From NCBI RefSeq assembly GCF_003966735.1, contig NZ_AP017378.1, positions 1,411,501 through 1,475,500 of the forward strand: a DNA stretch of 64,000 bases, given 5' to 3'. Under the pieces are notes generated by a model. The model ran no database searches and had not been told where the DNA came from. It saw only the letters and a program-made list of their open reading frames with translations. Positions 4,731 to 60,286 of the stretch are shown here, in pieces. Every line of letters starts with the position of its first letter. Positions within the stretch are counted from its first letter, which is position 1. Source of the DNA: Desulfovibrio ferrophilus (lineage in GTDB: Bacteria; Desulfobacterota; Desulfovibrionia; Desulfovibrionales; Desulfovibrionaceae). The position numbers were made by a program, and so were the translations under genes.

Positions 4731-4854
4731 CGTTTTGTTCAGAGTCGTGCGAGCGCAAGGCGCAAGGTATTCGCCGGACCGAGGGATATTCAGCATATCC
4801 GAGGATCGGCGAATACCGCAGGAACAAAGCGATCGTGCAACTATGGACGAAACG
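4731..4854. repeat. 124-bp imperfect palindrome between convergent proC and rel
   Basis: The two arms, about 60 bases each, are imperfect inverted copies meeting at about 4792. The most conserved parts are GGTATTCGCCG (left) with CGGCGAATACC (right), the central GGATAT / ATATCC, and the outer ends CGTTTTGTTC / GGACGAAACG. Mismatches are spread along the arms, many of them C/T changes that would keep G-U pairing in RNA. It ends 8 bases from the rel stop codon and sits after the proC terminator. It looks like a mobile-type intergenic palindrome or a bidirectional transcript end. No second copy was noticed in this window. Confidence 0.7.
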
Positions 4855-4862
4855 ACAACTGA

Positions 4863-7034
4863 TTATTCATCCTTCTTGGACGTCACGCGCGTAACCTCGA
4901 TGACATTCTTGATGTCGGAGAGTCGTTTTACGGCCTGATAGAGGTGGTCGGAATCGCGGACATCCACCTTCATGATGATCTCCGAATTTCCATCCACATT
5001 GGACTGGAAAGAACCGGAATCGATATTGACCTCCAGCTTGTCCAGCGCCCCGGCGATGAGCATCAGCATGCCCTGCACATTCTTGCAGACCACTCGGATC
5101 TTGGCCGTATAAGTTCGGTCTTCCTGCTCGCCTTCCCAGGCAACGTTCAACAGACGCTCGGGCTCCATTGTCCCAACATTGGGACAATCCGTGGTGTGTA
5201 CGGTGACCCCCCGACCCCGGCTGATATAACCAATAATGGCGTCACCGGGCACAGGGTTGCAGCACTGAGCAAAGCGCACCAGAACGTCGTCCACGCCCTT
5301 GATGCTGACCTTTTCCGTGGGCCGGGCTTCCTTTTCCTTCTCAGTTGATTTCTTGTGCCGACCACGAACCTCGGCGCGTTCGCTCTCCTCCAGCTTGGGC
5401 ACCAGACGGTTCAGCACCTGGCGTGGAGTCAGCCGGGCGTAACCGATGGAAGCCAACAACTCATCGGTATCCTTGAAGGAGAAATGCCTGGAGATTTCAT
5501 CGAAGTCGCCAGCCTTCAGGCCCTTGGCCACATTGATGCTCATGCGGCGACCTTCTTTCTCCAACATCTCCCGGCCCAGAACCATGGCTCTGGATCGTTC
5601 CTCGGTACGAATAAAATGATTGATGCGCGTGCGAGCCTTGGCGGTTTTGACGAACTTGAGCCAATCCCGGCTCGGGCTGCGCTTCTTGTCCGTAATGATC
5701 TCGATCATGTCGCCGTTCTTGAGCTTGCGCGACAGAGGCACCAATCGGCCGTTAACCCGCGCTCCGGCGCAGCGATCGCCAACCTCGGAGTGAATGAGAT
5801 AGGCAAAGTCCACGGCAGTGGCCCCTTCGGGCAATTCACGCACATCACCGTTAGGCGTAAAGACGTAGACCTCATCCTTGAACAGGTCGAAGCGTAGAGA
5901 TTTCATGAACTCGCCAGGGTCGGATTCCTCCTTCTGCCAGTCCATCATCTCCCGCAACCACGAGAACCGCTCCAGATCGCGCGACACGGTCTTGGAGCCC
6001 TTTTCCTTGTAGCTCCAGTGCGCAGCCACACCAAATTCGGCCAGCTTGTGCATCTCTTCGGTACGAATCTGGATCTCGATGCGTTCGCCATCCGGCCCCA
6101 CCACCGTAGTGTGCAGAGACTGGTACATATTGGCCTTGGGCATCGAGATATAATCCTTGAAGCGGCCAGGCACGGGTTTGTAGTCTGCGTGCATCAACCC
6201 CAGCACGGAATAGCAGTCCTTGATGGACTCCACCACGATGCGGAAGGCGATCAGATCATGCACCTGATCCAGGGTCAGCCCCTGCTGTTCCATCTTGCGC
6301 CAAGTGGAGTAGACATGCTTCACCCGGCCCGAGACCTGAGCCGTGATCTTGTGCTTCTTGAGCTTCTTCTGGACCAGATCCTTGACCTTATCGATATACT
6401 CCTTGCCCTGCTCGGCATAATCCTTCAGCCCGTCGCCAATCTGATTGTAAACGTCGGGCCGCAAATACTTGAGAGAGATGTCTTCCAGCTCAATCTTGAG
6501 CAGGTGCAACCCCAGCCGGTTGGCAAGGGGCGCATAAATATCCATGGTTTCCTGGGCAATGAGTTTCTGCTTGTGAGACTTCTGGAAGTCCAGAGTGCGC
6601 ATGTTGTGCATGCGGTCGCAGAGCTTCACGAGCAGGACGCGAATGTCCTCACTCATGGCCATGATCATCTTGCGCAGGTTTTCTGCCTGTCGAGCCTCCT
6701 TGGAGTCGAAGGACATCTGCATCTGGCTGATCTTGGTCACGCCATCCACGATGTCGGCAACGTCTTCACCGAACTGGGAGTCGATTTCCTCCACCTCGGC
6801 TTTGGTGTCCTCCACCGTATCGTGCAGTAGGCCTGCGGCGATGGTAGCCGCGTCCAGACGCATCTCGGCCAGCTTGTTGGCCACTTCCAAGGGGTGGGAG
6901 AGATAGGGTTCACCAGACAGACGCATCTGCCCCGCATGGGCAGCAGCAGAAAACACGTAGGCCTTCTGGATCAAGGCCCGATCCTCTGCGGGAAGATACG
7001 AGACCTTATCGAGTATTTCGTGAATACGAATCAT
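4863..7034 (-). CDS. rel: Bifunctional (p)ppGpp synthetase/hydrolase (RSH)
   Basis: 723 residues, full-length Rel/SpoT architecture. The N-terminal HD hydrolase has an intact HD pair and ED motif (LLHDTVEDT, residues 69-77). The synthetase domain carries the RFKD motif (RFKDYISMPKAN) rather than the EXDD of monofunctional RelA, and EIQIRTEEMHKLAEFG. Then come a TGS domain (about 385-445, DVYVF-like), the Cys-containing QCCNPVPGDAIIGY region and a C-terminal ACT domain. Both activities should be present: making and degrading the stringent alarmone. The gene lies 13 bases after the binding-protein gene on the same strand, so it is probably transcribed from that promoter. Confidence 0.95.
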   Translation of the reverse strand: MIRIHEILDKVSYLPAEDRALIQKAYVFSAAAHAGQMRLSGEPYLSHPLEVANKLAEMRLDAATIAAGLLHDTVEDTKAEVEEIDSQFGEDVADIVDGVTKISQMQMSFDSKEARQAENLRKMIMAMSEDIRVLLVKLCDRMHNMRTLDFQKSHKQKLIAQETMDIYAPLANRLGLHLLKIELEDISLKYLRPDVYNQIGDGLKDYAEQGKEYIDKVKDLVQKKLKKHKITAQVSGRVKHVYSTWRKMEQQGLTLDQVHDLIAFRIVVESIKDCYSVLGLMHADYKPVPGRFKDYISMPKANMYQSLHTTVVGPDGERIEIQIRTEEMHKLAEFGVAAHWSYKEKGSKTVSRDLERFSWLREMMDWQKEESDPGEFMKSLRFDLFKDEVYVFTPNGDVRELPEGATAVDFAYLIHSEVGDRCAGARVNGRLVPLSRKLKNGDMIEIITDKKRSPSRDWLKFVKTAKARTRINHFIRTEERSRAMVLGREMLEKEGRRMSINVAKGLKAGDFDEISRHFSFKDTDELLASIGYARLTPRQVLNRLVPKLEESERAEVRGRHKKSTEKEKEARPTEKVSIKGVDDVLVRFAQCCNPVPGDAIIGYISRGRGVTVHTTDCPNVGTMEPERLLNVAWEGEQEDRTYTAKIRVVCKNVQGMLMLIAGALDKLEVNIDSGSFQSNVDGNSEIIMKVDVRDSDHLYQAVKRLSDIKNVIEVTRVTSKKDE

Positions 7035-7047
7035 GTTTATCAGGCCC

Positions 7048-8721
7048 CTACTGCTGCATTGCCGTGTTTTTCTGGAGGGCCTTGGGAATCCACCACTCCT
7101 CGAAATTATACGAAATGCCTGCCGGAGCTGGTTCGATGCCCTGGATACGGGCCGAGACCACGTTCAGAGACTTAGGCGAATACAGAAAACAGTAAGGCTG
7201 GTCCTGATGCAGAATTTCCTGGGCACGGTCATACAGCTTCTTGCGCTCTGCGCGATCAACCAGATGCCTGCCCTTCTCCAGCAACACGTCCAGCTCAGGA
7301 TTCTTGTAGCCGATGAAATTCAAACCACCAGGCACCGCCTTGGAGGAGTGCCAGACATTATACAAATCAGGATCAATAATGGTGGTCCACCCCATGACAA
7401 GGGCATCGAAGTTGCCGGTATCGATGAACTCCTTCAGGAAGGCAGCCCACTCCACGGTACGGATCTTCACAGAGATACCCACATCCTTCAGATTGGACTG
7501 GACAATGGTCGCGATCTTGATGCGCTGTTCATTGCCCTGATTGGTCAGGATGGTGAAGGCAAAGGGGGAGCCATCCTTGTCCAGCACGCCGTCGCCATCG
7601 CTATCCGTCCATCCAGCCTCTGCAAGCATGGCCTTGGCCACGGCAACATCATAGGGATAAGGTTCAATCTTGTCGTTGACCCAATAGGTTCCAGGTTTGT
7701 AAGGGCCGGAGGTCACGCTCCCCTGCCCCAGCAGGACACCCTTGATAACATCCTCCCGGTTGACGGCATGAGCCAAAGCTCGACGAACCCGTGCATCCTG
7801 AAAGAGCGGCCGGTTCAGATTCCAGCCAAGATACGTGTAGGCAAACGCCTGATACGTGTACTTTCTAAAATCCTGTTCCCACTGAGGCCCCTTGGTCTGG
7901 AACAGGTACTGTTGCGGCGTCACCCCCATGATGTCCAGGTTGCGGGCCTTGAGCTCCAGAAACATGGTGGCCTGATCAGGAATGATGCGATAGACGACCT
8001 CGTCGAAATACGGACGCCCCTTGAAATAGTTCGGGTTGGCCTGCAATATCAGATGACTGCCGCCTTTCCATTCCTTGAGCATATATGGGCCATTGCCCAC
8101 GGGCTGCCGACTGTATTTTGTCTCCAGAAGATTCTCGTTCTCCAGAATATGCTTGGGCAGGATTTCACCACCCCAGGTCGACAGGGCACGGGCATAAGGC
8201 TGCTCGTAGACAACCTCGAAGGTGTATCGACCTGTGACCTTGAACTCCTTGATCAATTTGTAGGATTCCGCATAAGCTGTGGGAGTCTTGGGATCCACCA
8301 TCATCTTGTAGGTGTATTCCACATCCTCGGCAGTGGTTTCCACTCCGTCGGTCCACATGATTCCCGGATGCAGCTCGAAGGTCAGCCGACGCCCGCCATC
8401 CAGAACTTCAAATTTCTTTGCTGCCCACGGGACAAGCTCAAGATTTTTATTGTATTTAAGTAAAGAAACATACAACAACCCAGTGATCTCGCTGGAAGCC
8501 GAATCAGAGGCCAACCGAGGAATCAAATTCGAAGGTTCACCAATGCTTCCGGTGACATAGTTACCACCATAGTCAGGCGTCGAGGGAACTGATGAAGCAG
8601 GTGCTGATGATGTGGCGTCACCGCCGGAGCCAGCCTTGCCAGCATCAGTATCAGAGCCACAACCAGTCAGAGAAGCAACGAGAAAGAGAAGAGTCAGCCA
8701 GAGACATATTAATCGGCGCAT
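7048..8721 (-). CDS. Oligopeptide/nickel-type ABC substrate-binding lipoprotein (SBP_bac_5)
   Basis: 557 residues. The N-terminus has a lipoprotein signal (LFLVASLTGCGS) with the lipidated Cys at residue 21, then a Gly/Ser/Ala-rich linker. The body shows SBP_bac_5 features: LIPRLASDSASSEI, WTDGVETTAEDVEYTYKMM, PVGNGPYMLKEW and the later INYSF-like ending. It would bind peptides or similar ligands outside the inner membrane. No permease or ATPase genes adjoin it, so it must serve a transporter encoded elsewhere. Its only operon partner here is rel, 13 bases downstream. Confidence 0.87.
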   Translation of the reverse strand: MRRLICLWLTLLFLVASLTGCGSDTDAGKAGSGGDATSSAPASSVPSTPDYGGNYVTGSIGEPSNLIPRLASDSASSEITGLLYVSLLKYNKNLELVPWAAKKFEVLDGGRRLTFELHPGIMWTDGVETTAEDVEYTYKMMVDPKTPTAYAESYKLIKEFKVTGRYTFEVVYEQPYARALSTWGGEILPKHILENENLLETKYSRQPVGNGPYMLKEWKGGSHLILQANPNYFKGRPYFDEVVYRIIPDQATMFLELKARNLDIMGVTPQQYLFQTKGPQWEQDFRKYTYQAFAYTYLGWNLNRPLFQDARVRRALAHAVNREDVIKGVLLGQGSVTSGPYKPGTYWVNDKIEPYPYDVAVAKAMLAEAGWTDSDGDGVLDKDGSPFAFTILTNQGNEQRIKIATIVQSNLKDVGISVKIRTVEWAAFLKEFIDTGNFDALVMGWTTIIDPDLYNVWHSSKAVPGGLNFIGYKNPELDVLLEKGRHLVDRAERKKLYDRAQEILHQDQPYCFLYSPKSLNVVSARIQGIEPAPAGISYNFEEWWIPKALQKNTAMQQ

Positions 8722-8951
8722 GCATCATCCATTTTACAAAAGTATAATTTGCGTGATATAGGCCTTCGCCCTAGGAGTTCCCGGGCATTGCCGGGACTTA
8801 CGATTATGAACCAGAGTTGGGAAAAAGCCAAGGGCCTTGCCAAGTCACATTTTTCTGCTACCATCAATAGATGGTCGAAAGTACGAGATTCCCTGACGGC
8901 TCTAACTCGTTGGCTGGATAGACAATCATTGCAAGTGAGGCACACCGCATC

Positions 8952-11900
8952 ATGGACAGCCCGGACGAGAAGGTCGTAGAAAGCCTTCTCCAGGAATTTA
9001 TCAACTTCACCGTCCCCGACTACATCGTGGAAGGGGCGAGAAATATCCTCTCTTCTGGCGGGGTTCAGAAGCTTTCGCTCAATAAGCGCGAAGGCTATTG
9101 GGACGTTGAAGGACAAATCCAAGGGGACGACTTCCAGTCGTACAGCCCCGAGCTGGGCCTGAACCTCGGTGAAGGCACCATCAATTTCTATTGCAATTGC
9201 CCGGACTCGTTCTCCGGCGTCTGCCGCCACGTGGCAGCCACTGCGCTGAAGCTGCACCAGACCTTCGAGGTCAAGGAAGACGGAACTCCCGGCCCCATCC
9301 GCTCCGACTGGCGACAGACCTTCCGCTCCTATTTCGCCACCGAGCCCGAACCCGAGGCTGGCAAGCACTATCTCCTTTTCCGCTTCTACCCGGAGCATGG
9401 CAGACTTCAGGTTGCCTTCTTCCGTGCACGCCAGAACAAATCGGGCCTGTCCACGGTGCAGAACGAAGTTACCCTGGAACAAATCATCGCCAATCCCGAC
9501 TGGTGCGAGATGTCTCCCATGCTGCCCATGGTGGCCGAGCAGATCAGCCATTACCTCGATTATGCCGGACACAGGGTGGAAATCCCCTCGGGTCTGCATT
9601 CCTGGTTCTTCCGCACCATTCGAGACGAATATTACCTGTTCATGGGAGAAACCGAACAGCCCGTTCGCATTCAGTCCAAGACCATGCGCCTGCGGCTCTC
9701 TCCGGTGCTCACGGACGACGGACTTTCCTTTGAAGTTCTCTTGGGCCGCGAGGGCAAGGTGCCCTTCCCCATCGGAGGCGAAGAAGTCTTCTTCTACGGG
9801 CGTACCCCCATCTGGGTGTGCTGGAAACAGGCGTTCTATCCAGTACAGACGAGCCTGTCTCCGGAACTGATCATGGAGATGGCCGAGGCACCTCCCATCA
9901 TCCCCCAGGATGCAATTTCCGAATTTTTGGACCGCGTATGGACAAAGCTCCCGGCCAGCGACCTGCACAACCAGGATCAATTCCTGGAGAAGATGAAACC
10001 CATCTTCGTGCCGGCGCAGTACAAGCCCAAGTTGTACCTGGATGAGGAAGGCAGCCTGCTGACCATGCGTATCTCCAACGTGTACGAAACCGAACACGGC
10101 GAAGCCGTGCTGACAGGCCCCAACCCGGACCTGCAGACCGGAAGCTACCAGTACAGCGGCAAGTCTTATCTGATCCTGCGTGCTCAGGATGAAGAGAGTG
10201 ACCTGACCCAGCAACTGGTGGACATGAATTTTCAGCCTCGCAACAACGAGAACTGGTTCCTGGAGCCCGAAGAAGCCATCAATTTCCTGCTGGATTCCTA
10301 CCCGAATCTGGTGGAGAAATATCGCATCTACGGTGAAAAGAACCTTGCTCGTTACAAGGTCCGCCTGACTACGCCCAACATTGTGGCCGAAGTGGAAACC
10401 GAAGAAGGCGAAAAGTGGTTCAACCTGGATCTGGCCGTGGATTACGACGGACAGCGGGTTCCCATCGACATCATCTGGGACGCCTGGACCAGCGGTAAAC
10501 GCTATGTCCAATTGAAGGACGGCACTTACACCAGTCTGCCTGAATCCTGGCTCAAGAAGCTGGGGCACAAATTGAAGGCCATGGGCCTGGACCCCGACGA
10601 ACCGCCCAAGACCGAATACAAGCAGTTCGAAGCTCCGGTGCTGGACAAGATTCTGGAAGATCTGCCTGATGTCACGGTGGACTCTTTCTGGGAGAATCTG
10701 CGCTCCAAGATTCACAGCTTTGAGGAGATCGAGACCCTGCCTCAGCCCAAGGGGCTGCAGGCCGAGCTTCGCCCATATCAGGCACAGGGCCTCTCTTTCA
10801 TGTATTTCCTCAAGGAATACGGCTTCGGAGGCATCCTTGCTGACGAAATGGGCCTGGGTAAAACCATCCAGACCCTGTCCTTCATCCAGTATATGCGAGA
10901 ACGAGGGCAGGAGGGGCCCAACCTCATCGTAATGCCCACCTCGGTGCTGCCCAACTGGGCGCGCGAGGCTGACAAGTTCGTTCCCGATCTGAAACAACTG
11001 ACTATTTACGGCTCCAGGCGTGAAAATCTGTTCAAACAGATCGAGGGGGCGGACCTTGTTCTGACCACCTACGCCCTGATGCGACGCGATCTGGAAGAAC
11101 TCCAGAAATACGAATTCAACTCCGTCATTCTGGACGAAGCCCAGAATATCAAGAACCCGAACACCATCACGGCACGTAGCGTTCGCCAATTGGACTCCAA
11201 GCTGCGCGTCTGTCTCTCGGGAACGCCCATTGAGAACAATCTGTTCGAGTTATGGAGCTTGTTCGAGTTCCTGATGCCCGGATTCCTGGGATCTCAGCAT
11301 TCCTTCCAGCGTGGAATCGTCAAACCCATCAAGGATGGCGACGAGGAGACACTGGATTACCTGCGCTCACGCGTGAAGCCTTTCATCCTGCGCCGCACCA
11401 AGGCCGAAGTTGCCAAGGACCTGCCGCCCAAGATCGAAAACGTCCAGTACTGCGCTCTGGCCGAAGAGCAGATGGAACTTTACTCTGCGCTGGCCAAGAA
11501 GCTCAAGAATCAGGTCCTCAAGGACGTGGATGACAAGGGCATGGCCAAGAGCCAGATGTCCATTCTGGATGCGCTCTTGAAGCTCCGTCAGATCTGTTGC
11601 CACCCGCGCCTGTTGAAACTCGATATCCCGGGTGTCTCCACAAACCTGCCCTCGGGCAAGTTCGACGCCTTCAAGGATATGATCCAGGACATCATCGAGG
11701 AAGGACACAAGGTTCTGGTCTTCTCGCAGTTCGTGCCGATGCTGCACATCATCCGCTCCTGGCTGCAAATCAGTGACATTCCCTTCTCCTACCTGGACGG
11801 TGCATCCAAAGACCGCTTCGAACAGGTGGACAATTTCAACAACAACCCGGACATCCCGATCTTCCTGATTTCCCTGAAGGCGGGCGGCACGGGCCTCAAC

Positions 11901-51385: not shown

Positions 51386-52291
51386 TCATCCCTTGCCCGA
51401 GGTCCTCGTGTGTCCAGGTCTTGCATTCTTTTCAACAAACCGAATGATCTTGCCTGCCACATCCAAACCCGTGGCTTTCTCGATTCCTTCCAGCCCCGGA
51501 GAAGAATTAACCTCCATCACAACGGGGCCATGATTGGAACGCAAAATATCGACACCACAAACATTAAGTCCCATAATCTTCGAAGCCCGGACGGCAGTTG
51601 ATCGCTCCTCAGGGGTAATCTTGATAACCGAGGCCGTTCCACCACGATGAAGGTTGGAGCGAAACTCCCCCGCTGCCGCCTGACGCTCCATGGCCGCAAT
51701 AACCTTGCCTCCCACCACGAAACAGCGAATATCTCGTCCTTTGGCTTCCTTGATGTATTCCTGCACCAAAATGTTCACCTTAAGCCCCTGGAAAGCCTCG
51801 ATAACACTCTGTGCGGCCTGCCTGTTCTCGGCCAACACGACCCCGATGCCCTGGGTGCCTTCCAATATCTTGACCACCAGGGGCGCACCTCCGACCATGT
51901 CTATCAGGTCCTCGGTAAATTTGGTCGAGTTTGCAAAGCCGGTCACAGGCAAACCGATTCCCTTGCGGGCCAGGAGTTGCAGGCTCCTCAGTTTATCCCG
52001 CGAACGGGTGATGGCCACCGACTCATTCAGGCAATAGACCCCCATCATCTCGAACTGGCGGACAACAGCCGTGCCATAAAATGTTATGGATGCGCCGATA
52101 CGAGGAATCACTGCGTCCACATCTCTCAACTCCTCACCCTTATAGTGAATCGTCGGGTTATGCGACGCAATGTTCATATAACAACGCAAAGGGTTGACCA
52201 CGAGAACTTCATGACCGCGCTCTTCACAGGCCTCTATCAAAGAATTGGTAGAGTAGAGTTGTTTAGACTTCGAGAGGATGGCAATCTTCAT
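51386..52291 (-). CDS. rimK: RimK-family ATP-grasp amino-acid ligase
   Basis: 301 residues, the usual RimK length. RimK adds glutamate residues to a protein or small-molecule carboxylate, the model case being the C-terminus of ribosomal protein S6. ATP-grasp features: [47 protein letters not shown] and the metal-binding [15 protein letters not shown]. Overlaps the RimZ-type gene by 4 bases. A role on a substrate other than S6 is possible, given the ligase-rich neighbourhood. Confidence 0.9.
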
Positions 52292-52773
52292 GAATCAATC
52301 TCCGCAAGCTGGGGATAGAGTGTCTTCGTGTTTCTTTTTCCGCCCTGGTAGGACAGCTGCGGATCAACCAGCAGTTGTCCGCTCATGGCACTGCGCCCAA
52401 GCAACATGCGGAATTTCATCTGATCCCTGTTGGTCAGGGTCAATTCAATGGGCCAGCAACGTCCAGCCAACTCGACAGTGGTCCGCACCACATAGCGACG
52501 TTGCGTTTGCCCGCCAGAATTGGTGATCCTACGTCTTTCCACAAGCTCGGCTTCACAGGGAATGCTGACGTCATCCCTGTTCTGCAGGGGGTGAATCTGA
52601 AACCGGAGGAACCGCTTTGCATCACGTTCAAAGACCTCCGGTTCATAGACATGAAGCGCCGAAGTCTTTGCACCGGTATCGATCTTGGCCTTGAGGCCGG
52701 GGACTCCCCAATCGGGAAAAGCCACCCATTCACGCCAGCCAATGAGCATTTTGGGGTTCTTGATGCGCGCCAC
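52288..52773 (-). CDS. RimK-associated retropepsin-like ATP-dependent zinc protease homologue (RimZ/DUF785)
   Basis: 161 residues from GTG 52773, chosen because GGAGG stands 8 bases upstream, inside the tail of the preceding terminator. The aspartic-protease-like motif [13 protein letters not shown] is diagnostic; ending [11 protein letters not shown] is also conserved. These proteins always pair with RimK and are thought to act on or recycle the ligated product. Coupled to rimK by a 4-base overlap. Confidence 0.85.
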
Positions 52774-52785
52774 TATTGTGTCCTC

Positions 52786-52831
52786 CAAAAAAAAAGCCGC
52801 CCTGACCATCCTTGGGAGCATCAGGGCGGCT
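52786..52831 (-). terminator. Terminator of the KamA/ATP-grasp operon
   Basis: On the minus strand AGCCGCCCTGA / TCAGGGCGGCT around a 15-base loop, followed by nine T. It ends the eight-gene operon after uspA; some read-through to the RimZ/RimK pair is likely since no other promoter was seen. Confidence 0.9.
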
Positions 52832-52850
52832 GGTCATACTCGGGAAGTCG

Positions 52851-53297
52851 TCAATGCACAAGCGGTTTGATGGTCAACACCGGAATCGATGACTCCTTGA
52901 CCACCTTCTCTGCCACTGAGCCAAACAAAATCCGTCCAACCCCGCGCCGCCCGTGCGTGCCAATTACAATCAGGTCGCATTGTTCGTCGTAAGCTGTTTT
53001 TACGATGAGTTCCGCCGGGTAGCCAGTCAACACCCCACCATCGGCATCAAGCCCCGCAAAATATTTATCAAGCACCTGCTCCATACTTCTTTCAGCGCCG
53101 CTGACAATGGACTGGACAAACTCAGTCACTGACGAGGCTGAGACCTGAAAATCGCGGTATCTGCTCAAACTCGGGGCAACATACACCACCAACACCTGAG
53201 CATCCATCACTTCGGCGATCATTGCCGCATGTTCGGCAACAGTGGGAGTGGCTTCTGAAAAATCAACCGCACAGAGAATCCGACGATACTGTCTCAT
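52851..53297 (-). CDS. Universal stress protein (UspA family)
   Basis: 148 residues. The ATP-binding signature GTHGRRGVGRILFGSVAEKVV (G-2x-G-9x-G-S) puts it in the nucleotide-binding class. N-terminus RRILCAVDFSEAT and the ending IPVLTIKP are typical. It follows the CheW gene by 16 bases and precedes a strong terminator, so it is the last gene of the operon. Stress-linked signalling is the family role. Confidence 0.9.
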   Translation of the reverse strand: MRQYRRILCAVDFSEATPTVAEHAAMIAEVMDAQVLVVYVAPSLSRYRDFQVSASSVTEFVQSIVSGAERSMEQVLDKYFAGLDADGGVLTGYPAELIVKTAYDEQCDLIVIGTHGRRGVGRILFGSVAEKVVKESSIPVLTIKPLVH

Positions 53298-53855: not shown

Positions 53856-54404
53856 TTACTGCTGTAATATTGTTCCTTTGTTTCCTGCATCATCACACAA
53901 GGCTCCTAGCCGCTTGTCGTAGATGCAACGATCATCGTCTTTGGCGTAATGATCGATGTCCACACGAGTCAGCAAAAAACCCTTGCGTTCATAGAAATTT
54001 CGAGTGGGCTCATAGCGTGGTTGAGAACTGGTCTCCACCCGCAGCCACACTCCACCGGAAGCACACACCCGTAGCTCGACTTCCGCGAGCAGCCGACTGC
54101 CTACCCCCTGACTCCGCTGGCTGCCACGCACAGCGATCCAGTAGAGGTCATGCCAATCGGATCGATTTTCAAAGGGGCCGTAGCAGGCAAAACCAAGGCA
54201 ACTGTCCGGCCCCTGCGCAAACAGAAAATGATACCCGCAACCCGGCCCATGTTCCAGACGCTCAACGACCAGGCTCATGGCGATCTCCACCTCCTTGGGG
54301 GTGAAGAACCCGGAGGAATCCGTCAGGACACGCACGGTCTCGACATCTTCCCAGCACACCTCGTCGCGTAGCCCAAGATCAATCACTGCCGTATCACTGT
54401 CCAT
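53856..54404 (-). CDS. GNAT-family N-acetyltransferase
   Basis: 182 residues from ATG 54404, two bases after the preceding stop. Acetyl-CoA-binding motif A reads YWIAVRGSQRSQGVGSRLLAEVE, followed by RVETSSQPRYEPTRNFYERKGF, both typical of GNAT. Next to a lysine 2,3-aminomutase this recalls AblB, which acetylates beta-lysine to the osmolyte N-epsilon-acetyl-beta-lysine. Here two ATP-grasp genes intervene, so the acetylated substrate may be a ligated product. Confidence 0.85.
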   Translation of the reverse strand: MDSDTAVIDLGLRDEVCWEDVETVRVLTDSSGFFTPKEVEIAMSLVVERLEHGPGCGYHFLFAQGPDSCLGFACYGPFENRSDWHDLYWIAVRGSQRSQGVGSRLLAEVELRVCASGGVWLRVETSSQPRYEPTRNFYERKGFLLTRVDIDHYAKDDDRCIYDKRLGALCDDAGNKGTILQQ

Positions 54405-54406
54405 CT

Positions 54407-55417
54407 TCAAGCCACCAGCCCCTGCGGGGCAACTCCAACTCTGGAGAAAGCAGCATCCACGATACACTCCACAGCTGTCCCAAAGGATATCCCGGCCTGT
54501 TTCAAAGCCGCCTGGAAACCCGCGTCCGGAGACAGACAAGGGTTGGCATTGACGTCGATAACCTGCGGCCCTCCACCCTCATCAACGCGATAGTCAACCC
54601 GAGCATATCCCGAAAGGCCAAAAGCCTTCCAGCACTCCAAGGTCTGCCGCTTCAGCGCCTCTTCAAGCTTGGCGTCCTGCAATTCAAAGCTACGGACCGT
54701 GCCTTGGTATTGAACCGAATCTTCGTCCCACTTCGCCTGATAGCCCACAATTGGGGTAGCTCCTGGGGGCAGTGTCTCGAACAGGATTTCTGCCAAGGGC
54801 AACACAATCAATCCTTCAGGGCTATCCAGAATGGCAACATTGAACTCGCGTCCTTCAACATAGCGCTCGGCAAAGCAATCACCGCCCATCCTTGCCCTCA
54901 GCCGTCGCATGGGATCAACCAGCTCGGAACTACTCCTCGCATCCACCAGGCAGTCGTCCTCCAATCCCAATGAGGCATGTTCCCATACCGACTTAATGAG
55001 ATACCGCCTGCTCTCGGAATAACGCACCTTCGACGAATCATTCGCGACGCACCACGGCGGAGTAGGTATACCTGCAGCCCTCATCACAACCTTGGCAAAG
55101 AGCTTGTTGGAAGACAGCGCCATGGCCGAACTACCTGAGCCGGTAAAGACCAGCCCCATATCCTCCAGGAGCGACGGGGCAAGGTGGATGTACCGCCCTT
55201 TGCCCTGCACGCCCTCCACAAGATTGAAAACCAGGTCCGGTGCCAACCCTCGCAGAGATGATGCCACGGCATTCATATCTAATGAGAAACAGACGGAATG
55301 GACCACATGCCCACGAGCCCGAAGCTCATCAGCAAGGCAACGCACCTGCAACAGCACGTCCAGATTATCTGCAGAAGCCCCCGCAAGCGGGGCATCATAC
55401 AACATGACGATCTTCAT
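54407..55417 (-). CDS. D-Ala-D-Ala ligase-like ATP-grasp enzyme 2
   Basis: 336 residues, carboxylate-amine ligase fold: N-terminal MKIVMLYDAP, PDLVFNLVEGVQGKGR, central YLIKSVWEHASLGLEDDC, FAERYVEGREFNVAI and metal-binding VIDVNANPCLSPDAGFQAAL. The last motif differs from true Ddl and resembles small-molecule peptide ligases. It overlaps the other ATP-grasp gene by 4 bases and would form an amide or peptide bond with an acyl phosphate intermediate. Substrates unknown. Confidence 0.85.
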   Translation of the reverse strand: MKIVMLYDAPLAGASADNLDVLLQVRCLADELRARGHVVHSVCFSLDMNAVASSLRGLAPDLVFNLVEGVQGKGRYIHLAPSLLEDMGLVFTGSGSSAMALSSNKLFAKVVMRAAGIPTPPWCVANDSSKVRYSESRRYLIKSVWEHASLGLEDDCLVDARSSSELVDPMRRLRARMGGDCFAERYVEGREFNVAILDSPEGLIVLPLAEILFETLPPGATPIVGYQAKWDEDSVQYQGTVRSFELQDAKLEEALKRQTLECWKAFGLSGYARVDYRVDEGGGPQVIDVNANPCLSPDAGFQAALKQAGISFGTAVECIVDAAFSRVGVAPQGLVA

Positions 55418-56451
55418 GCCACGTTCTCCGATTCGAACGCTGATAACTCTTCCAGCAGGAGTGCCACTTCCGGATCATCCAGAACCCGATCCAGAGCGCT
55501 GTTCACGATCTGCTCGATCAGGGAATCGTAAGAAACACCAATCAATCCGCAGAGAATCGGTAGGTCCGAATCCACGGGATGCAGCCCGGGGAGAGGGTTG
55601 ACCTCGATAAACGCGGGTCTATCGCTGCTGTCCATCCGGACATCAACACGTCCGCCATCCCGACAGCCCAAAGCCAGCCAGGAATCGAGCGCCAACTGAG
55701 CGGATGCCTCGGCTTCATCCCCCGAAGCCAACACATAGGAGACCCGGTCTTCATACTTGGCCTTGTTCTCGTAGCCGTAGTTTCCCCCTTCGTAGGCGCT
55801 GTCCACTAGCACTTCCATCACACCCACTACTCGGGCATTCCGACCGGTGCCCACAATACCCACAGTGAACTCGCGACCAGGAAGAAACTCTTCCACCAGA
55901 ACGGGCTGCCGGTGTTTTGCCAGCAACACCCGACAGGTCGCCTCCAACTCTTCAGGAGTCTTGATGAACGACTGTCCATCCACGCCCTTGCCTGTTCCCT
56001 CGGCAATGGGTTTGGCAAAGACCGGATAGTTCAGACCGGCATTCTCCAAATCCAGAGGTGTCTCCACCACAATGAAACGAGGAGTCTTCAGCCCGCAATC
56101 CCGCACGACCCGCTTGGCAGTAGCCTTGTGCAGGCTGACAGCCAAGACGAGGGGATCCGAAAAAGTATAAGGAATCTGGCGGGCATCCAGAATCGCCGGA
56201 ATGGCGGATTCTCGCCCGAAGCCATGCATCCCTTCTGCGATATTGAAGACCATGTCCCAACTTCGCCCTCGGCACAGTGCCGTCATCAGATCATCCAGCC
56301 CGCCAATCCTGACGGGTTGATGCCCCATGGACCGCAGTGCGTTCTCAATGGCTTGCACGGTCTCAAGGCTGTCAAATTCGGCGGTTTCTTCCAACGAATA
56401 ACCGGAGGAGAGCCATGCCTCTTTCAGGTCATAGGTGATGCCAATTCTCAT
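55414..56451 (-). CDS. D-Ala-D-Ala ligase-like ATP-grasp enzyme 1
   Basis: 345 residues from ATG 56451; the upstream in-frame part overlaps kamA more than needed. Features: MRIGITYDLKEAW, DMVFNIAEGMHGFGRES, PVFAKPIAEGTGKGVDGQS, LVEEFLPGREFTVGIVG and FIEVNPLPGLHPVDSDLP. The KYEDRVSY and EVNPLPG motifs are closest to Ddl, but a stand-alone murein role is unlikely in this context. Overlaps kamA by 4 bases. Only 20-25 percent resemblance to its neighbour by eye, so the two probably add different building blocks. Confidence 0.85.
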   Translation of the reverse strand: MRIGITYDLKEAWLSSGYSLEETAEFDSLETVQAIENALRSMGHQPVRIGGLDDLMTALCRGRSWDMVFNIAEGMHGFGRESAIPAILDARQIPYTFSDPLVLAVSLHKATAKRVVRDCGLKTPRFIVVETPLDLENAGLNYPVFAKPIAEGTGKGVDGQSFIKTPEELEATCRVLLAKHRQPVLVEEFLPGREFTVGIVGTGRNARVVGVMEVLVDSAYEGGNYGYENKAKYEDRVSYVLASGDEAEASAQLALDSWLALGCRDGGRVDVRMDSSDRPAFIEVNPLPGLHPVDSDLPILCGLIGVSYDSLIEQIVNSALDRVLDDPEVALLLEELSAFESENVA

Positions 56452-57740
56452 TGCAGAGGTCCTTGGTGACCGCTGTCGCACGGTCTGCTTTGAAAAGTCC
56501 CGACGGGATCCGCGATGGAATATTCCCGCCCCTCGTAGTTGCGAAAAACCAGTTTGTCGCCATCGCGACGGACCAGGTACTCGGGACAGACCGGGGTCTT
56601 GCCACCGCCTCCGGGCAAATCAACAACAAAGTGCGGCACGGCATACCCGGAGGTAAAACCTCGAATACTTCTGATAATCTCCAGCCCCCGAACCAACGTC
56701 GTCCTGAAGTGCGAGGTGCCTGCAACCTGATCACAATGATACAGGTAGTATGGACGCACACGCATCCTGAGCAGTCCCTGGAACAGAGATGTCAAAATCA
56801 GTTCATCATCATTCACGCCTGCCAGCAGTACCGTCTGGCTGCCCAAGGGAATGCCCGCGTCTGCCAGACGGTTGCAGGCCTGCGCCGCCTCGGGGGTCAA
56901 CTCCGCCGGATGGGTGCAATGAATGCTCACAAACAACGGATGATAACGCTTGAGCATCCGGGTCAAAGCAGGCGTAATCCGCTGAGGCAGCACCATCGGG
57001 GTCTTGGTTCCGAGCCGGATCATCTCCACATGGGGGATGGCCCTTAGCCGCGAGAGCAGATACTCCAGAGCCGCGTCCGACAAGGTCAGGGGGTCCCCCC
57101 CGGACAACAGGACGTCACGGACTTCCGGATGCTCACGGATGTACTCGATGGCGCGGTCCCAGACCCCGATGCGCCGACTTTTGGTCTCCGGCCTGCCCAC
57201 GCGGCGAGATCGCGTACAATAGCGGCAGTAGGCCGAGCAATAATCAGTGGTCAGAAAGAGTACCCTGTCCGGGTAGCGCTGCACGATACCAGGAACCGGA
57301 CTGTCATGCTCCTCGCCCAATGGATCGTTCAACTCGCTCATAGTGACAAACCCTTCAGCCAGACGGGGAATCATGCTGTATCGAAGAGCACTCCCCCCCA
57401 GAGACGATTCGTGCCTGATCAGAGCGGCATAGTACGGGGTCACCGCCGCCGGGAACTTGCACTGCTGCATGCGCAGAGCTTGGCGCTCGTCACCCGTCAA
57501 CTCAACCATGCGCTCAAAATCCTGCTCCGAGGTCAACCGGTGACGAATCTGCCAGCGCCAATCGTTCCAGTCCCTATCGCTCACATCAGCATGAAACAAT
57601 GCCCGGTATTCCCGGATGGCATCGCTTTCCACACTGAGCTGCAAACGCCGCCCAATCAACTCAGTCACCCTCTTCATGGAAGAAGAGGGAGGCTGATCGG
57701 GGTTCTCCACGACATCTACCGTCTGGGTTTGCTCAAACAT
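56448..57740 (-). CDS. kamA: Lysine 2,3-aminomutase (KamA-family radical SAM enzyme)
   Basis: 430 residues. The radical SAM cluster is Cys168, Cys172, Cys175 (CSAYCRYC). The residues that bind lysine's epsilon amino group in the clostridial enzyme, Asp293 and Asp330, correspond to Asp337 (HCDQVAG) and Asp374 (FVVDLPGGGG); the PLP lysine is Lys381. All are present at constant offset, so L-lysine to L-beta-lysine is the likely reaction, rather than the glutamate variant or the shorter EF-P enzyme EpmB. Fourth-from-top in an operon with two ligases and an acetyltransferase. Confidence 0.9.
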   Translation of the reverse strand: MFEQTQTVDVVENPDQPPSSSMKRVTELIGRRLQLSVESDAIREYRALFHADVSDRDWNDWRWQIRHRLTSEQDFERMVELTGDERQALRMQQCKFPAAVTPYYAALIRHESSLGGSALRYSMIPRLAEGFVTMSELNDPLGEEHDSPVPGIVQRYPDRVLFLTTDYCSAYCRYCTRSRRVGRPETKSRRIGVWDRAIEYIREHPEVRDVLLSGGDPLTLSDAALEYLLSRLRAIPHVEMIRLGTKTPMVLPQRITPALTRMLKRYHPLFVSIHCTHPAELTPEAAQACNRLADAGIPLGSQTVLLAGVNDDELILTSLFQGLLRMRVRPYYLYHCDQVAGTSHFRTTLVRGLEIIRSIRGFTSGYAVPHFVVDLPGGGGKTPVCPEYLVRRDGDKLVFRNYEGREYSIADPVGTFQSRPCDSGHQGPLQ

Positions 57741-57758: not shown

Positions 57759-58112
57759 CTACTGGACCGCTTCGTTGGTCTTTTCGAGGGCCTCTTCGGT
57801 GTCATCCTCCTGAGAGACGAAAGACACCTCAATAACAGCCTCGCCAAATTCGTTTTCGACAACCCTGCCTACCACTTCGACAATGCTCTCGAGATACGGG
57901 CTCATGTCCAGTCCTTCGAGTCGATAGAGCACATCGTCCTCACTAATGAGAACAATTCCAACCTCACTCTCATAGACTAAACCACGGACCACATATTCAT
58001 CACCAGTCGCCTCAAATGCAGCGGAAGCAGGCAGGGCAATCACCATCGTTAATAATAAACTCAGAAAAACAGCCACAACACATTCATGGCTGGCCATCAT
58101 TGCGCTACGCAT
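57759..58112 (-). CDS. Secreted small OB-fold-like protein
   Basis: 117 residues from ATG 58112 (AAGGAG upstream). Signal peptide (VAVFLSLLLTMVIALPASA) then about 80 residues with a beta-rich pattern: EYVVRGLVYESEVGIVLISEDDVLYRLEGLDMSPYLESIVEVVGRV, split here only in words. The alternation G-x-V ... YRLEG ... VEVVGRVVE fits an OB fold of the periplasmic bacterial kind. Acidic C-terminus. Similar in outline to the two cytosolic proteins at 58145 and 61878. It lies 18 bases before kamA. Confidence 0.65.
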   Translation of the reverse strand: MRSAMMASHECVVAVFLSLLLTMVIALPASAAFEATGDEYVVRGLVYESEVGIVLISEDDVLYRLEGLDMSPYLESIVEVVGRVVENEFGEAVIEVSFVSQEDDTEEALEKTNEAVQ

Positions 58113-58144
58113 CACCAAACTCCTTGGACACTCGTGCTCACGGC

Positions 58145-58477
58145 TTATTGCCGCCACATTCGAGGAAAAGATTGGCCGACGTCTGAACCACCATCCCAAT
58201 TGAAGTCATAGCCACTGTCCACATCATCACCAAGAACCCGGCACTGACCAACGACAAGCAACCAGCGTCCCCGATTATCCAGTACCTGCTTGCCCTCGCA
58301 CTCCACACGATGATGACAGAGACCAAGTAAGGCAGTTTCCTTTGGACCTGAGATGACGAATTCGGATTCATCAGAACCGTAGAGGACAACCTCAATCAGG
58401 CTACCGTCCTGGTCCCAGTCATTGGGAAGGATAATACCGCTCACCTTCTTCATTGATTTTCCATGCATACTGGACAT
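58145..58477 (-). CDS. Small OB-fold-like protein, first gene of the KamA operon
   Basis: About 110 residues from ATG 58477 (GAGGCG upstream); ATG 58450 (MKKVSG) is also possible and would match the start of the paralogue at 61878. Core: MKKVSGIILPNDWDQDGSL, SEFVISGP, VECEGKQVLDNRGRWLLVVGQ. The paralogue shares the layout MKK-SG, P-DW, EFxI and VEaxG. No signal peptide. Function unknown; the strand pattern suggests a ligand- or nucleic-acid-binding barrel. Confidence 0.6.
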   Translation of the reverse strand: MSSMHGKSMKKVSGIILPNDWDQDGSLIEVVLYGSDESEFVISGPKETALLGLCHHRVECEGKQVLDNRGRWLLVVGQCRVLGDDVDSGYDFNWDGGSDVGQSFPRMWRQ

Positions 58478-58540
58478 CAGTCGCCTCGCCATTTTTGAGG
58501 TTCACTTCTGGGCACGTTACCGCCGTACTCCAAAGAAATA

Positions 58541-58882: not shown

Positions 58883-60286
58883 ATGAACCAAGTGCTCGCC
58901 GTTACCGGCAATCAGGATGCCAGACAAACAATCAAGGATTGCTTCGGTCTGGGTGCCACGGTGCATTCAGTCACCGGGCAACGGGAGCTGGACCGAACAC
59001 TGGCCTCTCACATCTATGACCTGGTTTTCATCGACATCAGCTTCATCGAAAAGCAATCCGCAGGTAACGGACGATGTTCTCGCGAAGGTTTGCAACGCCT
59101 ATGGAACATCAATCCCCATATCATCATTGTCGTCCTGTCAGAGCAGGACCGAATTCGCGACGCAGTCAAGGCCGTCAAGGAGGGTGCAGACAACTATCTG
59201 ACCTACCCCATTGACCCGGCCGAAACCAACTACATCGTGGATAGTATTCTGGAAGCGCAACGCTTGCAGACTGAGGTGGATTATTTCCGCTCCACCAGTG
59301 GTCAGGGGGAGCACTCGGAAGTGGTTGGCACCCGGAACCCTCAGATGCGCACGGTCTTTGAAAAAGCCAGACTTGTCGCTCCCACCATTTCCACCGTTCT
59401 GCTCAGCGGTGAAACAGGCACAGGCAAAGGCGTCATCGCCCGTCTGATCCACACCCTGAGCAACCGCAAGGAGGGACCATTCGTCAACATTCACTGCGGT
59501 GCCATCCCGGACACGCTGGTTGAGAGTGAACTGTTTGGTCACGAGAAGGGATCGTTTACTGGGGCGATCAAGCGAAAACTCGGGCGCTTCGAAATCGCCT
59601 CTGGCGGCACAATCTTTCTGGACGAAGTGGGAACGGTATCAACATCGGCCCAGATTAAGCTTCTCCAGGTGTTACAAGAAAGAATTTTCCAAAGGGTTGG
59701 TGGCGACTCGGACATCCCCATGGATGCCCGCATCGTGGCCGCCACGAACATCGACTTGCAGAGCATGTGCGAGCGAGGAGAATTCAGGCAGGACCTGTTC
59801 TATCGCCTCAATGTCTTCCCCATTGAGATTCCCCCCCTGCGTGAACGTCGCGAGGACATTCCCCTGCTCACGGAAAACTTCCTGAAGCGACTCTCAAGGA
59901 TACAGCTCAAAGACATTCTGGGAATCCACCCCTTGGTTCTGAAGGCTTTCGAGCACTACCCTTGGCCCGGCAATGTCCGTGAACTCGAAAACCTTGTGGA
60001 GCGGGCTTTCATTCTTGAAACATCGCGAATCCTGACACCGGAGAGTTTCCCCGCGGAATTGTTCGAAAAGCAATCCTCTGGTTCAAGCATTTCACTAGAC
60101 ATGGATTTGACCCTGGCCGAATTCAGAGAGCGGGCCAAGGAAAGCGCCGAGCGGCACTATCTGAAAGAACTACTTTCCAGCAACCAGGGCCGAATCAACA
60201 AGTCCGCGAATCAGGCGGGCATCAGTACCCGGCAACTCCACAAACTCATGACCCGGCATGGACTGCACAAGGAAGACTTCAAATAA
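58883..60286 (+). CDS. Sigma-54-dependent transcriptional activator (NtrC family)
   Basis: 467 residues. N-terminal receiver-like domain with possible phospho-acceptor Asp in LVFIDISF, but the conserved Lys is replaced (NYLTYPIDP). The AAA+ domain has Walker A GETGTGKG, the sigma-54 contact motif as GSFTGA, Walker B GGTIFLDEVG, and the arginine-finger region FRQDLFYRLNVFPI. A Fis-type helix-turn-helix ends the protein (NKSANQAGISTRQLHKLM). Divergent from the KamA operon and followed by two more sigma-54-promoter genes, it is the likely local master regulator. Confidence 0.93.
   Translation: MNQVLAVTGNQDARQTIKDCFGLGATVHSVTGQRELDRTLASHIYDLVFIDISFIEKQSAGNGRCSREGLQRLWNINPHIIIVVLSEQDRIRDAVKAVKEGADNYLTYPIDPAETNYIVDSILEAQRLQTEVDYFRSTSGQGEHSEVVGTRNPQMRTVFEKARLVAPTISTVLLSGETGTGKGVIARLIHTLSNRKEGPFVNIHCGAIPDTLVESELFGHEKGSFTGAIKRKLGRFEIASGGTIFLDEVGTVSTSAQIKLLQVLQERIFQRVGGDSDIPMDARIVAATNIDLQSMCERGEFRQDLFYRLNVFPIEIPPLRERREDIPLLTENFLKRLSRIQLKDILGIHPLVLKAFEHYPWPGNVRELENLVERAFILETSRILTPESFPAELFEKQSSGSSISLDMDLTLAEFRERAKESAERHYLKELLSSNQGRINKSANQAGISTRQLHKLMTRHGLHKEDFK

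Follow-up and report, generated by a model that had tools for sequence, protein, structure and literature searches.

The question raised by this locus is what product is made by an operon in which a lysine 2,3-aminomutase gene is joined to two ATP-grasp ligase genes and an acetyltransferase gene. The operon, kamA-ligA-ligB-GNAT, lies in a stretch of 64,000 nucleotides from Desulfovibrio ferrophilus (C1:1411501-1475500 of the 3.72 Mb genome), referred to below as the window. Judging from its gene content, conservation and predicted active sites, we consider it somewhat probable (roughly 0.6) that the operon encodes a dedicated pathway to a small N-acetylated peptide that contains beta-lysine, or to a beta-lysine-amine conjugate. 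What was computed directly is the gene set with its conservation and co-occurrence, the retention of catalytic residues and the loss of the D-alanine-binding triad in the ligases. No description of the operon was found in a literature search, whose coverage left out most subscription journals and all preprints. L and G numbers are our labels for loci and genomes, respectively.

Organization of the operon

The four genes are intact and run head to tail on the minus strand from 57740 to 53856:

57740-56448, minus strand: kamA, 430 amino acids, lysine 2,3-aminomutase-like radical S-adenosylmethionine/pyridoxal phosphate enzyme (TIGR00238, TIGR03820 and alignment with 2A5H)
56451-55414, minus strand: ligA, 345 amino acids, ATP-grasp ligase of the D-alanine-D-alanine ligase (Ddl) fold, first type (PF07478 and AlphaFold2 model)
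55417-54407, minus strand: ligB, 336 amino acids, ATP-grasp ligase of the Ddl fold, second type (PF07478, model and separate clade)
54404-53856, minus strand: GNAT N-acetyltransferase, 182 amino acids (PF13508/PF00583; the family profile matches PDB 2R7H)

A sequence-only reading of the window had described these genes as joined by 4-base overlaps or a 2-base gap, and this arrangement was confirmed: an ATGA overlap is found both at kamA/ligA and at ligA/ligB, and the spacing between ligB and the GNAT gene is 2 bases.

Conservation and co-occurrence of the gene set

A LigA search yielded 116 relatives, and 80 loci were kept. According to record titles, the carriers of these 80 loci included deltaproteobacteria, Planctomycetes, Bacteroidota, Marinimicrobia, Spirochaetales, Acidobacteriota, Nitrospinota, Elusimicrobia, alphaproteobacteria and others. 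More than four-fifths of the loci with sufficient room around ligA (>1.8 kb before and >3.5 kb after it; 52 of the 80) carried the complete four-gene set on one strand, within 6.5 kb (44 of 52: 39 in the plain arrangement, 4 with a ligB-GNAT fusion and 1 with a kamA-ligA fusion). The eight incomplete ones were L033, L035, L050, L052, L068, L070, L072 and L076. When their genomes and that of L026 were searched for LigB (n = 9), LigB proved to adjoin ligA in L050, and six of the eight remaining genomes had it away from the LigA locus (E <= 1.8e-100); this genome-wide search found no LigB in the L033 and L035 genomes. Fusions comprised LigB-GNAT in six loci, KamA-LigA in one and histone deacetylase (HDAC)-GNAT in two; a LigA-LigB fusion frame in L049 was left out of the count because of an unread base between its domains. 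In addition, the pairwise distances of KamA, LigA and LigB were correlated across 56 loci (r 0.76-0.83, with 0.17 as the largest value in 1000 permutations).

The set also co-occurred at the genome level. LigA (E < 1e-130) was present in 17 of 39 relatives, and LigB in 16 of these 17 and in none of the 22 LigA-negative genomes; the E cut-offs were set after seeing the gap between LigA and Ddl-like matches in these relatives. We then examined an evenly drawn sample of 297 genomes of the phylum, in which at most 4 to 7 candidates were scored per genome and counts may be low. Here LigA and LigB were carried by 104 and 106 genomes, respectively (both in 100, LigA only in 4, LigB only in 6, neither in 187). 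The LigB threshold of 1e-60 may admit a paralog in G094, G130, G236 and G247, which had a LigB-like match and no LigA. With KamA at E 1e-150, the corresponding numbers for LigA and KamA were 94 with both, 10 with LigA only, 11 with KamA only and 182 with neither. Six of the 11 KamA-only genomes probably have the osmolyte pathway, because an ablB-like gene adjoins their KamA; G110 has KamA and LigB with a short LigA fragment in between, and G081, G089, G125 and G128 have KamA with neither LigA nor an ablB-like neighbour. A plasmid search with LigA at E 1e-40 gave no match.

KamA and a probable second use of beta-lysine

KamA could be aligned with lysine 2,3-aminomutase 2A5H over 375 residues (E 3.4e-126). 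Asp293 and Asp330 of the 2A5H chain, which we take to be the residues that read and bind the side-chain amine of lysine, correspond to Asp337 and Asp374 of KamA (counted along the alignment). The equivalents of Asp293, Asp330 and Lys337 were present in all 120 aligned KamAs (118 distinct), of which 96 came from operons, 9 from the arginine decarboxylase genomes described below and 15 from other sources. The window KamA scored 322 bits against TIGR00238 (cut-off 199.2) and 451.5 bits against the AblA model TIGR03820, which is under its cut-off of 525.4. A glutamate 2,3-aminomutase identity was rejected, the score being 415.4 bits versus a cut-off of 650 and both aspartates being kept. The same genome contains a second kamA together with ablB, both above their cut-offs (769.2 vs 525.4 and 300.7 vs 205.1, respectively). 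Because this canonical ablA-ablB pair is also in the genome, the window operon would be a second use of beta-lysine there, and a simple AblAB identity for the operon was rejected.

A third kamA-like gene was observed as two overlapping pieces in L088 (G000:C1:1512000-1527000, at 4750-9486); it is a single frame of 543 amino acids in the congener G001 and of 520-604 amino acids in seven other matched relatives. Next to it lie genes for an ATP-grasp-like protein that matched no Pfam family at E 1e-4 and for a GNAT and an M20-type peptidase (the latter two recognised by eye), and L088 is possibly another beta-amino-acid ligase cluster.

Active sites of LigA and LigB

The best Ddl-model scores of the window LigA and LigB were 151.7 and 115.1, respectively, versus a curated cut-off of 243, and both proteins were under the cut-off of every Ddl model among the library matches listed (the best 25 of 38 for LigA and the best 25 of 26 for LigB). 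Their AlphaFold2 models had pLDDT (predicted local distance difference test) values of 91.3 and 92.8, and all of the 50 PDB matches listed for each model belonged to the Ddl family. In a phylogenetic tree, LigA (128 sequences, support 0.954) and LigB (106 sequences, support 0.992) formed two clades, both separate from the 10 Ddl sequences. A separate Ddl-like gene is located at C1:1364312 of the genome.

Residue columns were read against an E. coli DdlB reference sequence and counted in 119 LigA and 97 LigB sequences; for a few loci of the non-decarboxylase group, kamA and a decarboxylase are both out of view. The residues that we take to bind ATP and magnesium in Ddl were largely kept: the equivalents of K97, K144, E180, E187, K215, R255, D257 and N272 in at least 117 of 119 LigA and at least 95 of 97 LigB, and that of E270 as Glu in 118 of 119 LigA and as Glu (79) or Asp (18) in the 97 LigB, the window LigB having Asp. 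On the other hand, the equivalents of Glu15, Ser150 and Tyr216, presumably the triad that binds the first D-alanine in E. coli DdlB, are Ala, Thr and Ala in the window LigA and Asp, Ala and Trp in the window LigB. The E15 and Y216 equivalents were replaced in most or all LigA and LigB, and that of S150 was mostly Thr in LigA and mostly Ala in LigB. The His63 equivalent was changed to Glu in almost all sequences (117 of 119 LigA and 95 of 97 LigB). Thus, both ligases look active from their residues and neither looks like a D-alanine ligase, because the D-alanine triad is lost while the ATP and magnesium residues remain; such a role was set aside on the lost triad.

Ser281 of DdlB is assumed here to hold the second (acceptor) carboxylate. 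Its equivalent was Ser in 107 of 119 LigA, and among 97 LigB it was Ala in 67 and Ser in 25. The following position was Asp in 111 of 119 LigA and Cys in all nine LigA from arginine decarboxylase loci. The acceptors of LigA and LigB probably differ.

Two further kinds of ligase gene were observed. L119 and L138 contain single frames of ~680-700 amino acids made of two tandem LigA-like domains, with no kamA in the stretch examined, and a second LigB-like paralog (E ~1e-61 to 1e-70) was found in several genomes of the phylum on a contig other than that of the main LigB (e.g., G058:C27:5550-6509).

Acetyltransferase and a GNAT-deacetylase fusion

The family profile of the operon GNAT matched PDB 2R7H (E 1.4e-60), which its depositors named putative D-alanine N-acetyltransferase; this name was probably taken from the annotation of a neighbouring ligase. 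The window GNAT itself had only a weak match to rimI (E 4.5e-6) and none to AblB (TIGR03827).

Another protein of ~600 residues, containing GNAT and histone deacetylase domains (GNAT-HDAC), was encoded in 18 of the 80 loci (as two frames in L044), where its gene occupied three or more different places in the operon; in the two HDAC-GNAT loci mentioned above, the deacetylase is additionally fused to the operon GNAT. In D. ferrophilus, GNAT-HDAC lies apart from the operon (C1:2262220-2263968). It was found in 14 of the 17 LigA-positive relatives and in none of the 22 LigA-negative ones. In the phylum sample, 27 genomes had both LigA and GNAT-HDAC, 77 LigA only, 1 GNAT-HDAC only and 192 neither, the single LigA-negative carrier being G110, with its KamA and LigB. 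We count GNAT-HDAC, which was nearly confined to genomes with LigA, as a fifth gene of the set. The D. ferrophilus copy matched PF00850, and the HDAC motif columns, presumably the zinc ligands and the catalytic tyrosine, were invariant in 15 of 15 relatives. The closest solved chains to the deacetylase domain were the acetylpolyamine amidohydrolases 9GKZ, 6PHR and 3Q9B.

Arginine decarboxylase variants

An additional 32 loci were fetched and chosen for variety, and in nine of them sister LigA'-LigB' pairs were located beside a pyruvoyl arginine decarboxylase, accompanied by agmatinase in seven and by GNAT' in five. Curated cut-offs were exceeded by both the decarboxylase and the agmatinase of L117 and by the decarboxylase of L122. 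All nine genomes had one KamA elsewhere, nested with the operon type (support 0.999), and no ablB-like gene (E 1e-8) was found in the nine loci around these kamA genes. The idea that putrescine replaces beta-lysine in these variants was dropped for this reason; beta-lysine probably stays a partner, because all nine genomes keep an operon-type KamA without an ablB-like neighbour, and putrescine or agmatine may be added. None of the nine genomes contained GNAT-HDAC. In L165-L169, a small gene for a MerR-like regulator (by eye; weak match) precedes the lone kamA of decarboxylase genomes.

Regarding the three cases of LigA with no LigB in the genome, a PotD-type binding protein was encoded ~3 to 4 kb away in L035 and G025, and not in L033; the G025 protein scored 364 bits against PotD, under the cut-off of 582. 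With the deacetylase partner and the decarboxylase variants, neither of which was visible to the sequence-only reading, a polyamine, and not amino acids alone, may be a partner.

Proposed pathway and comparison with known systems

In the proposed pathway, KamA would convert L-lysine to beta-lysine, and the two ligases, as non-Ddl members of the Ddl fold, would form two amide bonds at the cost of ATP with beta-lysine as one partner. The GNAT would acetylate a free amine, and removal or recycling of the acetyl group is probably the task of the GNAT-deacetylase fusion. Such a pathway would yield an intracellular N-acetylated di- or tripeptide containing beta-lysine, or beta-lysine joined to an amine. 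Lysine as the substrate, the order of steps, the partners, the acetylation site, the product and its role are what we infer from the genes and residues described above.

The AblA-AblB pathway for N-epsilon-acetyl-beta-lysine (Pfluger et al., 2003, as cited in passages of PMC1224877 and PMC3543383) resembles this scheme in that beta-lysine is made by a lysine 2,3-aminomutase and then meets a GNAT. A passage of PMC3543383 names ablA-ablB as an osmolyte pathway of Pelobacter carbinolicus, and one of PMC1224877 describes acetyl-beta-lysine and an acetylated glutamine dipeptide as osmolytes. The operon differs in that its KamA is under the AblA cut-off, its GNAT is not AblB and two ATP-grasp ligases are added. 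Similarly, LigA and LigB share with Ddl the fold and the ATP and magnesium residues (apart from Asp for E270 in the window LigB), but differ in their replaced D-alanine recognition residues, their separate clades and their scores under the Ddl cut-offs listed. The acetylated dipeptide N-acetylglutaminylglutamine amide, made by a ligase and an acetyltransferase, offers an analogy only, since the window GNAT had no TIGR03103 match; this model was also absent from the best 25 matches listed for LigA or LigB, and no asparagine synthetase-type partner was recognised by eye among the neighbour families recurring in at least 4 of the 80 loci. GNAT-HDAC resembles the acetylpolyamine amidohydrolases in its deacetylase domain and conserved HDAC-type motifs, but differs in carrying a GNAT domain ahead of the deacetylase in one fused protein and in its link to genomes with LigA and LigB. 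2R7H belongs to the same family as the operon GNAT and was compared by its depositors' name alone. The main text of a deacylase survey (PMC11532494), in the portions consulted, leaves aminomutases unmentioned and mentions GNAT in general terms.

Part of what the sequence-only reading had proposed agrees with these results. Its view that the genes act together is borne out by their conservation across phyla, their co-occurrence even when unlinked and their fusions, and the two lysine-reading aspartates that it noted in KamA recur throughout the alignment. Judged by active site, LigA and LigB are not D-alanine ligases, in line with its view of them as ligases that join beta-lysine to other amino acids, and the canonical ablAB elsewhere in the genome upholds the distinction that it drew between the operon and AblAB. 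The di- or tripeptide that it proposed would be one form of the product, a beta-lysine-amine conjugate being another, and the osmoprotectant role that it suggested is considered among the alternatives below.

Several observations weigh against the proposed pathway. The operon KamAs did not form one clade, 76 being placed apart from AblA and 20 beside it (120-sequence tree, midpoint root). KamA at E 1e-150 was missing from 10 of the 104 LigA-positive genomes, although two of these, G139 and G241, had a weaker-scoring KamA beside LigA (L120 and L141). LigA occurred without LigB in Rhizobium setariae (L035), the metagenome-assembled genome of L033 and G025, and GNAT-HDAC was missing from 77 of the 104 LigA-positive genomes in the phylum sample. 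The S150 equivalent is still Ser in 24 of 119 LigA, and the roles assigned to Ddl residues are presumed ones.

Alternative explanations

The deacetylase and the decarboxylase variants bring up a beta-lysine-polyamine conjugate, in which the ligases would link beta-lysine to putrescine, agmatine or a related compound, perhaps with one more amino acid in between, and the GNAT and the deacetylase would control acetylation in the manner of polyamine metabolism. We hold this only tentatively. It would accommodate the resemblance of the deacetylase domain to acetylpolyamine amidohydrolases, the nine sister-ligase loci with arginine decarboxylase (seven with agmatinase) whose genomes have kamA elsewhere without an ablB-like gene, the PotD-type protein near two of the three loci lacking LigB in the genome, and the Ser281 equivalent, mostly Ser in LigA and Ala in LigB. 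However, the window operon has no polyamine gene, GNAT-HDAC is absent from the decarboxylase genomes and GNAT' is present in only five of their nine loci; moreover, such neighbourhoods may reflect shared regulation, and acetylpolyamine amidohydrolases could also take acetyl-beta-lysine. An osmoprotectant peptide analogous to N-acetylglutaminylglutamine amide is possible but doubtful. According to part of PMC1224877, osmolytes are known among derivatives of beta-lysine and among acetylated dipeptides, and dedicated ligases with an acetyltransferase would mask charges, but the genome already has ablAB, and no osmolyte transporter or salt regulator was recognised by eye among families present in at least 4 of the 80 loci. 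Carriers also include groundwater, freshwater-lake and sludge-digester genomes (by record titles), so a purely high-salt role is not favoured; the same titles point to both fresh and saline sources.

The remaining two explanations appear much less probable. A D-alanine dipeptide or cell-wall precursor, with the GNAT acting as the D-alanine acetyltransferase after which 2R7H was named, would fit the Ddl fold, the best database matches and that name. We give it very little credence: both window ligases have other residues at the Glu15, Ser150 and Tyr216 positions, the scores are below all Ddl cut-offs among the matches listed, a separate Ddl-like gene is present and the link to KamA is tight. 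Beta-lysine is a component of known antibiotics, and this precedent would speak for a secondary metabolite of that kind; the very wide distribution of the set by record title, and the fact that no peptide or polyketide synthetase or resistance gene was recognised by eye among families in at least 4 of the 80 loci, make this highly improbable, although the LysE-like exporter family described below would be compatible with it. An N-acetylated beta-lysine peptide or amine conjugate is the explanation that we favour.

Candidate control elements and other neighbouring genes

The region upstream of kamA contains the following features:

57759-58100, minus strand: small protein encoded immediately upstream of kamA, weakly similar to DUF5818 (PF19135 under cut-off, on the longer frame 57759-58199)
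58145-58492, minus strand: small open reading frame, upstream and co-directional, possibly the first gene of the transcript
58556-58541, minus strand: candidate sigma-54 promoter, 2 mismatches to the consensus
58883-60286, plus strand: sigma-54-dependent regulator, divergent from the operon, candidate controller

A reading frame similar to the 57759-58100 protein also precedes kamA in L005/L102 (a single contig) and, with weaker similarity, in L034, L007 and L014; the 58145-58492 frame was kept in the congener (193 bits) and had a single weak match, in L015. Matches to the sigma-54-dependent regulator were found in 24 loci, and 13 of the best 14 were located within ~1.5 kb upstream of kamA (two pairs are copies), the other being elsewhere. 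In 77 de-duplicated loci, the 1500 bases preceding kamA were scored against a sigma-54 consensus; the first copy per locus was kept, which left out L104 with its perfect site. A site with at most 2 mismatches occurred in 27 loci on the coding strand and in 6 on the other, and one with at most 1 mismatch in 9 and 0 loci, respectively. The window had 9 sigma-54-like hits versus 12.8 expected, and the site at 58556-58541 alone was not above chance; the best site of the congener is at a similar distance upstream of kamA. The sigma-54 signal is thus above chance in the many-locus comparison only, and not for the window site by itself.

Non-core families recurring in at least 4 of the 80 loci (by eye) included TetR-type regulators and a phosphate transporter of the PiT type together with its partner. 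In 5 of the 80 loci (L013 and four others), the opposite strand carries, ~5 kb ahead of ligA, a family that by eye is LysE-like and might export lysine or a lysine derivative. On the downstream side of the operon, 51386-53297 encodes a RimK-type S6 glutamate ligase that scored above its cut-off, a Usp protein and a RimB-type retropepsin-like protease, the last of these below its cut-off; no strong match to this group was found near kamA outside the genus in the loci compared.

Significance

If the proposed pathway is right, it would be a four- or five-gene beta-lysine route to a new small molecule, present in about one-third of the sampled genomes of the phylum and in many phyla. It would also provide functions for two ATP-grasp families that match D-alanine ligase models best here, and for a GNAT family in which the nearest solved structure was named as a D-alanine acetyltransferase, and it would allow a direct test of whether beta-lysine and polyamine metabolism meet in one product. 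A bolder and considerably less certain idea is that N-acetylated conjugates in which beta-lysine is joined to an amino acid and to a diamine (putrescine, for example) might form a widespread, as yet undescribed class of intracellular compounds, built by two Ddl-derived ligases and unmade by the GNAT-deacetylase fusion. If this were true, beta-amino-acid and polyamine metabolism would be linked in anaerobic and other environmental bacteria.

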